A stretch of 64,000 nt of DNA from Amphiura filiformis (lineage: Eukaryota > Echinodermata > Ophiuroidea > Amphilepidida > Amphiuridae), in the NCBI RefSeq assembly GCF_039555335.1, contig NC_092628.1:100707893-100771892 (forward strand), given 5' to 3'. Below are positions 3,101-63,546 of this stretch, piece by piece. The notes below the pieces were generated by a model. It searched no databases. It saw only the letters and a list, made by a program, of their open reading frames with translations, and had not been told where the DNA came from. Made by a program: the position numbers and the translations under genes. Position 1 is the first letter of the stretch. The number at the start of each line of letters is the position of its first letter.

Positions 3101-6100
3101 GCAGACCCTTGCGGAAATCCCCATGGCAGACGAAATGCATCTGAAATTGTATCTTCGACCACAACGGCTTGAACACGATTTTTCAGGTACGAAACGAACC
3201 AATTCAGAACAGTTCCTCCAATCGCTGAAACAAGACATCATGATCTATTGTATCGAAGGCTGCTGAATAGTCTTGAAGGACAAGAACTGCTTCCTGTCCT
3301 TGGTCGATGGCGAGGAGAAGATGGTTTTGGACTCGCAATAACGCAGTCTCAGTCGAATGATGGCAGCGATAACTTTCAACTTCAACTTCAACTTCAACTT
3401 TATTTTCTATAATCATACAAACAGACAAATACTTATTGGATACATTATTACAGAGAAAGATTAAACGAAACGATTATGAAGGGAATGACCGAAAGGCCAA
3501 TAAGGCCAGACATTGACCACCCCCCTTTTATAAGACAGAAAAATGAAAAGCAAAATGAAAAGACTATCACACAAGACACATAAAACTTAAAAATTTGCTC
3601 CAAAAATTAAATGTATGATGAGAAAAGATGCAATTTGTATTTTTTTCGAAAGTTTTTCAATGATTTAGCTTCTTTGACATTTTCGTTTAGGGAGTTCCAC
3701 AGGATTGGGCCTGTGGTTCTGACCGCTTGATCAGTAAAAACCTTTTTATTTCTTGTTTGATTATAATTGTTGCTGTTTCTTGTGTGATAGCTGTGGATAT
3801 CAGAACGTTTTGTAAAGAAGTTTTTAAACGAGTTTGGTAATTGATTAAGACAGTATTTGTACATAAATACGCCTAATTCTAATTTGTAGGTGTCAAATAC
3901 GTTTAAAAAAATCATATTTATGAAAAAGTGGCCCAGAATGACTCCGATAGTGGCTATTGGATATGGTTCTCACAGCCCATTTGTGAAGCTTGTGTATTTT
4001 CTCAAGATATGTTTTATACGTATTCCCCCAAATGAGAATCCCGTAATTTATATAAGGCAAGACAAGAGTACAATATAATGTTTGCAAAACCCGTTCAGGC
4101 ATGTAAAATTTCAGTTTGTTAATTATGCCAATATTCCTGGAAATTGTTTTTGATATTCCATCAATATGACATTTCCATTATCCATTATAACTCCTAAAAA
4201 TTTGGTCTTAGTTACTCTTTGTAGTTTAACATTGTCTAATATAATATTTGCATTTTTGTGAGACGTACCATCATCAGAGTTTTCCATCGAAGTTATTTTT
4301 GGGGTACCCATAATCATATAATTAGTCTTACTAGCATCAACCGAGAGTTTGCTTGACTTGAACCAGTTGCTTACTTCTGATAGTTCCTTATTAATCATCG
4401 ATATGTCATTTACAAAATCATCACTTGAGTACAAAATTGTCGTATCATCGGCAAATAGTGTGAAGTCTAACAAACTCGACGCATTAGTTATATCATTGAT
4501 ATACAGAATAAAAAGTAGAGAGCCTAACACCACATATTATACTTTGAAGTTCAGATTTGCTGGTATTATAATTTACATACTGTTTTCTATCGCTTAGATA
4601 ACTCATGAACCAGTCATAAACTATTCCCCTGAATCTACAGTGTTCCATCTTATGAAGTAAGATTGATTGTGCACTGGAAAATAAGTCATTGCTTTGCAGG
4701 TAAGTCTTAAGCTGAGCAGCAACAACTCTCTCGAGTACCTTGAAGATGAACATAAGGTTCGCAATGGGTCTGTAGTTCTGAAGATCATTACGATCAAGAT
4801 TGTATTTTTCAGAAGAGAAATGACATAGGAGACCTTGAACGCATCTGGAACAGAACCTGACATTAATGATGAATTTATAATGCCAGTGATGCAGGGCAAC
4901 AAAACATCAAGGGTTTCTTTGACCAGCCAAGTTGGGATATGGTCTAATTTGCAATGCTTTGATGCGCTTTCACGAATAACTTTGGATACGGTGTCCTCTG
5001 ATATAATGGGCTATTCTAGCAAATGAATATATACCGATACAAAGGGTATTCTTTCCCAGGGATAAATATCACTGGAATTCCAAGCATAACCATAAACACA
5101 TGGCATTCCAATAGTGCAAGACTAGCTTGGACATTCTATCTAATGCAAAGACCTTTAAAAGCTGCATTTCCGGGTCATCATGCCGAGGCACTCTATTACG
5201 TGTGTGTGCATATTTTCACATTTTAGGTATAACATACACCATAAAATCTGTATAATTATGTCTATGGTCATAATCGTCATAATGTAGATTTCCACACATT
5301 TTCTATAAATGGTAATTAAAAAAGCTACATCAACTGATTCGCGACAATTTAAGTTTTGGGTTTAGCAATGTCTAACTATTCCTGTGGGCTTCAGGCTCAA
5401 TGTACGATATGCTCATGTATGTCTGTTGTTTAATGTGTGGTGCTACACATACATCATTGCTGTTCACCATTGACGAAAAAGGCCCCTAAAAGGTATACGC
5501 CTTATTCGTGACATAAACAACCTCAACTAACTTCTAAACCTGCAATTAAAATTGTACGTACCTCATGTATGTCATGAAAAGGAATTGCACCCCAACTTGG
5601 AAAGTAAGGTTGGACTACAACTGATATCTACTGGTCAGTTTATACTCTCATTTCCAAATCAGTTTTTTTTTTTTTCAAAGTCACTTTAAGCGAATTTGTT
5701 TAGGGACTGGTAAGTTGAAGTAATCTCATGTGGAATGTACTTGCCTGCAATGTTCTTTTGTACCCATTTCATGGCTTCCACCTGATCAAGCATCCCCATA
5801 TTACCCGGCACAACATTGTCTCCTGCAAATGAAGATAGAAATTATCATTTTTTTGTAGTGCTTTAATTTTCATTTTGAAATAAGGTATTCCTTATTATCT
5901 TATCTATATATACCTGTAGCAAGAAATCCAATTGCACCCAATCTGTAGTTAATAGAAACAACGATGACGTCACCAAGGGCCGCTAGAGGATGCAGGTCCA
6001 TGCCTTCTGAAAAGCTCCCAGCTCCGATACCGTAACCTCCGCCGTGTATCCAAAACATCACTGCTGCATTGGAAGGCTTTTGTGAAGAATATTTAAATAT

Positions 6101-60700: not shown

Positions 60701-63546
60701 ATTATATTCATATGAGTGTTCTTATTCGGTATCAGAGTATAAGATATCTGTTTTCGACCTCATTGGCGTAATTTTACTCAGGTACTTACTGATCATACTA
60801 ATACATGCAGTACTTACACTTATGGTCGCATTAATAATATCATCGACAGGTGCATTACGCAGGCACTGATCTACAAGTTGTTCTGTGGTCTCTTCATTGC
60901 ACCCAACAAGCTTACCAAGTGTAAATGCTCGTTTGGCGTGATTAGCCGTATCTATGTTACGTGCCCAAGGAGCAATAGCAACGCCACTCTGAAGAAAGAA
61001 AATTAAGATAAATATTGAGTACTAAGTAAAACAAAAACAAAAAACTTTGGTGCAGACCCAGATTATTCATCTAGTATATTACGCAATTTAGTACAAATTT
61101 AATTCAAACATTAGAACTTCTTTTGCTGTTGTAGTTGTTGACATGATATTGTATATTTGGAAGTCAGGTCGATTGGTCACGTGAGAGAATGCTAAGTCCA
61201 CAAAATAATGATTTTAATAGTTACACGGTCGTAAGCACCAAGACGTAAGGAACCGCAGCCTCTCAGATACATTGATTTGATCGACTTAAACATTTTTCAC
61301 CTTAGCAACCAAATATATAAACTTTTTTTTTGTTGAAAATACAATCTTCATTTTTGGTCAAAGCATTAGGGTTGTGCAATAATTTTGTATATCTCCATGG
61401 TGGTTGAAATTTTGGCTGAAAAAAATAGCAGGCTAAATATCTGGGGAAGGGGAGCATTTTCGTCAGGTCGTAAAGAGTGGGAAAGCGATTTTGGCATAGT
61501 AGCTTGGGCACCATTTCGAACGTTCAAATATGAAATATTTCTTGCTCGGTGGGCTCATTTTTTGCACGGCCAAAGAGGGGTGGGGGAAAGCGATTTTTGG
61601 CATACCATTTTGAGAATTAATCCTCGCGAGAGATATACATATAACTATTGCACATCACACCTTAGGCATGGAAATGTTTCAAGTGTGCCACAATATTCCT
61701 GTTAGGTTGATCCGGGAGGTTGATAAAGGTACATTTCAGGTACAAGGACAAGAGAATAACCCACCTGCATTATAGCACGGGAAAACAATCCTGCACTGAG
61801 TGGTGACAACGTATGCAAACTAACACTTCCGCCACCAGCACTCTCACCGAAGATGGTAACTTGGTCTGGATTACCTCCAAAAGCTGTGAATATTGTTTAA
61901 TTGCCAAGGTAAATGTCAAGATAAATACAGGCTTAATACAATTGGTCAGGAACGAGTCGGGACATATTTTAGAAATAAATATAACATCGTTTGAACTCAT
62001 ATTGCATTACTTTATTATAAAATTTTAAAAGTACACCAACTTAACATTAGTTACATTAAAAACAAAATTAACAAGCTCGTATTCTAACATGTATACGTAA
62101 AAATATCAGGCGAATCCTACATGATTTGTCGTATACAAACAAACAGATGCAACATTAAGTTTCAGCTTTGGCCACTCCTGGTTTAAAATTTCTTTTCCCA
62201 TGGTGTAGCGATGACCAAAACATAAACTTTGAATATAATCATTTTCTCTTTAGCTTTAGCTGCTTTATCAAACTTTACACAAAGGAAATGTTCACAAAAT
62301 GACCCATAATATGCCTTATATGAACTTTGACTCCAAGCTGTGGTACAACTTATATTAAGCTTGGGCCAGCGGTTCTTCTGACCAAGTTTGATGGCCTTAT
62401 AGCATGTAATTTAAACGAGCGGCAGCATTTTTAAGATTTTCACAAAATGACCTATAATAACCCTTACGTGACCTTTGACCCCTATTTGTGTAGAAGTTAT
62501 ATCAAGCTTGGATCAGTGCTTCCCATGGCCAAGATTGGTCAACATTGGTGCAAGCGTATGACCCTGGTAGCAATTTTCGGTTCTACTAAAGAAGAAAGAA
62601 GATGAGGAAGAAGATTTTGGAGCTTCACAGAATATCAGGCGGATAATACGCCTGATATAGCAAAGGTAAACAATATACAGTTCCAGTTTTATATTAATCT
62701 GTGAAAGCTGGGGTGAAAGATGACAAAACCGCGGAGAAAATACGCGGTGTTTGATGTTTTCACATTGCGAGCACATTGGTAACGCACGTGTTGTTTGTTT
62801 ACATCTTACCGGTCCAGAGTCTTGGCCACCGCACTACCTGAGTTCACAGTTGGTACTCAGGCAATCTCAACTAATTATGAAATTTAAGGGAAGAATAACA
62901 AGTTTTGACTCAATAATCTGTGGTACTTGCCTGCAATATTCTTTTGTACCCATTTCATGGCTTCCACCTGATCAAGCATCCCCATATTACCCGGCACAAC
63001 TTCGTCTCCTGCAAATTAAGATAAAAATGGTTAATTAACGTGCCTCACTGATATTAGAACTGTTTCCGCCCGAACTGACTCAAGTGCGTTTTGTGTCCGC
63101 CGACGAACAATGTATCTAAGAGCTTACACAGAGGGATTCCAGTACTGCCACATATCTGTGCTGCATACGAGTAATGAAATGAGAAATATGTGCAATAAAA
63201 TCAGCAAAATGTACCCGGCACTCTTCGGTTTTAAGCACATGTATATCAGTGACTTAAAACAAGTGCGAAATGTTGTTATGCTTATCCTATAAGCATAACA
63301 AGGCGGATTTTGCATAACGCTCTGTATGGAACACTACGAAATTAGCAATCTCCCTTTGTAACTGCACATGATGATACACATACCTGTAGAAAGGAATCCG
63401 AAAGCATTCAATCTGTAGTTAATAGTAACAACAATGACGTCACCAAGGGCTGCTAAAGTGTGCCCATCCATTTCCTCCGTAAAGCTTCCGGCTCCCATAG
63501 CATAACCTCCGCCGTGTATAAAAAACATCACTGCTGCATTGGAAGG
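57795..63546 (-). CDS. Gene F: cholinesterase-like carboxylesterase, exon 1 outside window, altered C-terminus
   Basis: Exons 2-8: 63384-63546, 62931-63008, 61765-61883, 60818-60988, 59505-60127, 58830-59017 and an exon 8 from 57871. Exon 1 should lie above 64000. GESAG, NADEGT and GACHADDL give the full triad, and exons 2-7 are open and phase-matched to gene D, the sister copy. Two oddities: the Trp before IHGGGY is Phe (MFFIHGGGY), and exon 8 has one extra T (run of four at about 57830), so after [11 protein letters not shown] it reads [11 protein letters not shown] and stops at 57795-57797 instead of the usual stop at 57776. This removes the third tail Cys and seven residues. The catalytic core is unaffected, so it may still function. 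Exon 3 again uses a GC donor. Confidence 0.88.
60169..60528. mobile_element. 360-bp foldback transposon at a TTAA target, gene F intron 5
   Basis: The two halves pair over about 170 bp, starting GGGGGTACTACACCCCT and ending AGGGGTGTAGTACCCCC, with TTAA at 60165-60168 and 60529-60532. Gene D has TTAA once at this place (near 29880). Non-coding; piggyBac/Kolobok-type target. Confidence 0.88.
62290..62690. repeat. Gene F intron 3 repeat with TGACCTTTGACCCC
   Basis: Two related units, one with the exact motif (62469-62482). Shared with gene D at 35760-36120, so it predates the duplication. Confidence 0.6.

Follow-up and report, generated by a model that had tools for sequence, protein, structure and literature searches.

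The stretch of DNA analysed here (the window) comprises 64,000 nucleotides of the ophiuroid Amphiura filiformis (assembly GCF_039555335.1, contig NC_092628.1, forward-strand positions 100,707,893 to 100,771,892) and harbours five carboxylesterase/cholinesterase-like genes, here called A to E, which lie in tandem on the minus strand. One eight-exon gene architecture is found around each of five copies of an unusual splice junction, at which intron 3 starts with GC instead of GT: intron 3 is GC-AG in all five genes, and the remaining 26 of the 31 modelled introns are GT-AG. Comparison of the junctions covers five paralogues of this one array, with genes A and E incomplete at the ends of the window. 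Family membership was assessed on the gene C protein, the one scanned, which matches the Pfam carboxylesterase family PF00135 over nearly the whole profile (E 4.5e-141; 471.7 bits at a cut-off of 27) and differs from that family by a short C-terminal part, encoded by exon 8, outside the Pfam match. The best 60 of its 166 matches in the PDB are named cholinesterases or acetylcholinesterases, except for one carboxylic ester hydrolase; this likeness to cholinesterases is one of overall sequence similarity. In one scan of viral contigs, no relatives of a part of the gene C protein were found.

A preliminary description of the window had placed the sequence ATTGCAG/GCAAGT (the slash marks the exon-intron boundary) at the end of exon 3 in every gene. 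This is confirmed for all five, as are the donor positions that it gave, with the final bases of exon 3 located at 5745, 14770, 36647, 53584 and 62931. The motif ATTGCAGGCAAGT has exactly five mismatch-free sites, all on the minus strand (5739, 14764, 36641, 53578 and 62925), and one extra similar site on the plus strand, which has two mismatches and is unrelated; CAGGCAAGT occurs nowhere else within the window when both strands are searched. Exon 3 measures 78 bp and runs from phase 1 to phase 1 in each of the copies, and its skipping would preserve the reading frame. Behind the AG acceptor, exon 4 starts with CTTTTGG in five of five genes.

Candidate donors (GT or GC) from exon 3 and the initial 150 bases of intron 3 were paired with AG acceptors around exon 4 (180, 177, 259, 167 and 198 scored pairs in genes A, B, C, D and E, respectively), and the product of each pair was scored against the matching segment of a solved cholinesterase (PDB 6emi_A). 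The GC junction ranks first in all five genes, and the alignment with cholinesterases is gap-free over NIA/AFGG at the boundary between exon 3 and exon 4. The earlier assertion that only this junction keeps the frame was right in so far as the GC junction yields the conserved, gap-free protein with the best score in every copy, but it was too strong, for an open-frame GT is also present at -60 in all five genes and at +21 in C and E. These GT sites are what would recommend a reading in which splicing relies on another donor, a GT, and leaves the GC site unused, yet the highest-scoring GT pairings come to 147-207 across the genes, compared to 225-232 for the GC junction, and the GT at +21 pairs poorly with U1 (-2.5); we regard such a reading as extremely unlikely. 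The donor actually present reads CAG/GCAAGTAC in all five genes, with the first eight intron bases identical among the copies. Its core, CAG/GCAAGT, is a U2-type GC donor form that matches U1 at all consensus positions except +2. Pairing with the 5' end of U1 is predicted at -8.8 to -9.0 for the GC donor and at -13.5 for the same site carrying GT, with the remaining donors of these genes ranging from -5.7 to -12.4. In none of the five genes does a GT site within exon 3 or the initial 100 bases of the intron pair with U1 as well as the GC donor; a near competitor, CAG/GTGGAA at -37 (CAG/GTAGAA in D), has a U1 energy of -7.6 to -8.0, a GT at +89 in gene C reaches -8.5, and the GT at -60 is assigned -7.4 in A, C, D and E and -5.3 in B. 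As GCAAGT stands in a perfect U2-type context in the donor, a U12-type intron was not considered further.

Over exons 2-5, the number of synonymous substitutions per synonymous site (dS) is 0.08-0.15 among B-E, and comparisons of these four with gene A give 0.34-0.46. Informative sites in exon 6 of B-E support the grouping of B with D and C with E at 72:0:0, free of conflict, and the corresponding count in exons 3-5 is 2:3:1. Between the two clades, dS is 0.28-0.36 in exon 6 but drops to 0.10-0.19 over exons 3-5; within the clades, dS in exons 3-5 is not lower (0.10-0.17). Because of this pattern of informative sites together with the dS values, the copies are understood to have probably exchanged sequence over exons 3-5, leaving a mosaic, and gene conversion may have been the process by which the clade signal was lost there.

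The preliminary description found it striking that the GC had been retained despite easy mutation to GT, a view that is not supported by analysis of the divergence, considering both the expectation under drift and the homogenised appearance of exons 3-5 in B-E. Under the Hasegawa-Kishino-Yano model, the probability of no C-to-T change on the whole tree is 0.77, 0.64 and 0.53 at tree lengths of 0.23 (all positions), 0.40 (third positions) and 0.575 (a hand sum of dS values), respectively, and retention is therefore explained by drift alone. Gene A has 28 synonymous third-position C's; at 16 of these every copy has C, and at 11 a T occurs in another copy. To count the five copies as five independent retentions was rejected on the basis of the young dS, these synonymous C's, the model probabilities and the lost clade signal. 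Gene D retains the GC donor in spite of an in-frame stop, which is as expected for a recent copy. Regarding the origin of the junction, at a GC-AG rate of 0.8% a gene with seven introns will contain one or more of this type with a probability of 0.055, and duplication then passes the GC-AG intron to every copy. The other half of the earlier proposal, ancestry with a strong flanking match, is sustained by the CAG/GCAAGT donor, by U1 pairing in the range of the other donors and by the young age of the duplicates.

We thus consider it highly probable that intron 3 is an ordinary, constitutive U2-type GC-AG intron that was GC-AG in the single ancestor of the array and is shared by descent and exchange, with no special selection on the C. 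To arrive at the present array, a single ancestral esterase gene would already have been GC-AG at intron 3; the U1 mismatch at +2 would be compensated by the perfect match elsewhere in CAG/GCAAGT, and the intron would be spliced constitutively in vivo by the major spliceosome; duplication would then have handed GC-AG to five copies, assisted by exchange over exons 3-5, and no selective premium on the C would be needed at any step. Purifying selection for a reason unrelated to alternative splicing (e.g., a protein-binding motif, slower splicing), acting on the C or on an element that overlaps the donor, could likewise account for a GC retained in five of five copies and for the identity of GCAAGTAC among them. 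However, drift predicts that retention with the probabilities given above, sequence exchange raises them, and identity at +3 to +6 is a requirement of any GC donor; selection of this kind appears very unlikely. When tandem paralogues have a rare splice dinucleotide in common, selection does not follow from that observation alone, since the copies are related by descent and exchange sequence with one another.

Some of the data weigh against descent and exchange as a complete account. When synonymous counts in exons 3-5 and in exon 6 are compared pair by pair in Fisher tests, which are not the basis of the claim of homogenisation, the result is mixed, with p < 0.05 in three of six pairs. Exon 3 shows just 1-3 synonymous changes per ~15 sites relative to gene A, and at the start of intron 3 the BD clade resembles the CE clade with z scores of 5.1-12.3, above the similarity behind most other exons. 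The latter two observations are weak hints of regulated splicing, in which the weak GC donor would be kept for condition-dependent skipping of exon 3, or for use of an in-frame GT donor, in the manner of let-2 of Caenorhabditis elegans. Gene A is closest to the rest in exon 3, differing by 3.8-5.1% of nucleotides there and by 8.4-10.1% in exon 4, 14.1-17.2% in exon 2 and 21.4-23.8% in exon 5, and exons 2 and 5 have 12.5-16.5 synonymous changes per ~39-40 sites in most comparisons with gene A; the synonymous deficit of exon 3 is weak, at one-sided p values of 0.035, 0.035, 0.15 and 0.168 in four non-independent comparisons, and fits sequence exchange as well as a splicing element. Similarity of the intronic stretch downstream of exon 3 among B-E is just as compatible with exchange reaching into intron 3 as with a splicing element, and the upstream flank gives z scores of 1.7-3.1 between BD and CE. 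The frame-preserving length and phase of exon 3, the frame-keeping GT at -60 in all five copies and the enrichment of human GC-AG introns in alternative 5' splice events, reported in PMC7242645, would also suit regulation. Against it stand the flanks of exon 3 in gene A, whose similarity to the other copies is at chance level (z of -0.3 to 0.9 upstream and 0.2 to 1.4 downstream), the superior U1 pairing of the GC donor in each gene, and the consequence of skipping, namely loss of 26 residues of the hydrolase core that align gap-free with cholinesterases and immediately precede the GESAG nucleophile motif; judged from this alignment, the exon 3-skipped product is unlikely to be active. Regulation of this type is accordingly seen as unlikely, and it is quite improbable that the donor, the scarcity of synonymous changes in exon 3 and the similar intronic stretch behind it together constitute one conserved splicing switch. 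Such a switch, if true, would set the output of functional esterase from each copy, through skipping of exon 3 or use of the in-frame upstream GT donor, and would make the locus a set of five parallel copies for studying the regulation of GC donors. The junction also matters for annotation: a gene finder restricted to GT donors would fail to join exons 3 and 4 in any of the five genes.

Positions of the genes, of the exons and introns around the junction and of the exon 6 stretches compared are given in Table 1. The in-frame stop of gene D is a TAA at 50506-50508, and the gene is probably a pseudogene or else an allele with a truncated product. The short last exon (9435-9529, 26802-26896, 47483-47577 and 57795-57871) encodes a cysteine-containing tail outside the esterase domain, which reads ECDQDTTC... 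in B, C and E and is more diverged in D; exon 8 of gene E (57795-57871) has one base more than that of B and C, and its C-terminus is altered and shorter. Upstream of exon 1 of gene A lies a lone second copy of exon 1 (7482-7835, ~92% identical), the open frame of which ends at a weak GT (U1 energy -1.6) and which may serve as an alternative first exon or be a remnant of duplication. Fragments resembling the reverse transcriptase and endonuclease of long interspersed nuclear elements are found on the minus strand at 4123-4536, inside intron 3 of gene A, and at 21874-26255, alongside a further stretch at 2884-3237 that scores just below the Pfam cut-off. Repeats of other kinds are represented by a 563-bp unit that is repeated in tandem approximately three times, at 99% identity, within intron 2 of gene C (37254-38941) and by 28.5 mismatch-free units of TTTA at 44476-44589. 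Searches of the window found no transfer RNA and no Rfam family at gathering score.

Table 1. Esterase genes of the window, the exons and introns flanking the GC donor, and the exon 6 stretches used for comparison of B-E
Feature	Position	Strand	Remark
Gene A, exons 1-5	123..6959	-	remainder past window start
Gene A exon 3, 78 bp	5745..5822	-	donor TTGCAG/gcaagt
Gene A intron 3, GC-AG, 4914 bp	831..5744	-	contains reverse-transcriptase fragment
Gene A exon 4, 119 bp	712..830	-	
Gene B, eight exons	9435..19537	-	open coding sequence 1797 nt with stop
Gene B exon 3, 78 bp, GC donor	14770..14847	-	
Gene B intron 3, GC-AG, 177 bp	14593..14769	-	
Gene B exon 4, 119 bp	14474..14592	-	
Gene B exon 6, stretch compared	12576-13201	-	
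Gene C, eight exons	26802..42274	-	open coding sequence 1791 nt with stop
Gene C exon 3, 78 bp, GC donor	36647..36724	-	
Gene C intron 3, GC-AG, 3890 bp	32757..36646	-	
Gene C exon 4, 119 bp	32638..32756	-	
Gene C exon 6, stretch compared	29221-29843	-	
Gene D, eight exons	47483..55742	-	in-frame stop in exon 6
Gene D exon 3, 78 bp, GC donor	53584..53661	-	
Gene D intron 3, GC-AG, 168 bp	53416..53583	-	
Gene D exon 4, 119 bp	53297..53415	-	
Gene D exon 6, stretch compared	50099-50724	-	
Gene E, exons 2-8	57795..63546	-	exon 1 past window end
Gene E exon 3, 78 bp, GC donor	62931..63008	-	
Gene E intron 3, GC-AG, 1047 bp	61884..62930	-	
Gene E exon 4, 119 bp	61765..61883	-	
Gene E exon 6, stretch compared	59505-60127	-	

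Lastly, the junction is to be viewed in relation to GC-AG introns described elsewhere. In the open-licence literature searched, nothing was found that joins GC-AG introns with cholinesterase, nor anything on cholinesterase intron positions in sea urchin; for GC-AG and carboxylesterase the match was a nematode genome paper, and nothing of use emerged on the structure of carboxylesterase genes. Among the splice junctions of protein-coding genes in human and mouse, ~0.8% are GC-AG, such an intron is present in 9.7% of human protein-coding genes, and introns of this type are alternatively spliced more often (PMC7242645); their share is < 1% in model organisms (PMC7072748), and in gastropod haemocyanin genes two GC-AG introns represent 0.7% of sites (PMC7931591). 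The usual form of the GC donor retains a strong remaining consensus, (A/C)AG/GCAAGT (PMC2490688), and the ophiuroid intron agrees with U2-type GC-AG introns thus described in the GC at +1/+2, the AG acceptor and the strength of that remaining consensus. There is no structural difference from them; what is particular here is that the GC donor is common to five tandem copies. Intron 6 of GNAI1 likewise has a GC donor in a GCAAGT context, kept there in most mammals and sauropsids, and its role in skipping of that exon was excluded by the authors on expressed sequence tag and transcriptome shotgun assembly data (PMC5896119). In GNAI1, however, retention is among orthologues, with GT outgroups known, whereas the esterase junctions belong to paralogues of one locus. 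Intron 10 of C. elegans let-2 (via PMC2490688) has a conserved GC donor, as do the esterase genes; developmental regulation is established for let-2, whereas the array described here is known from its sequence.

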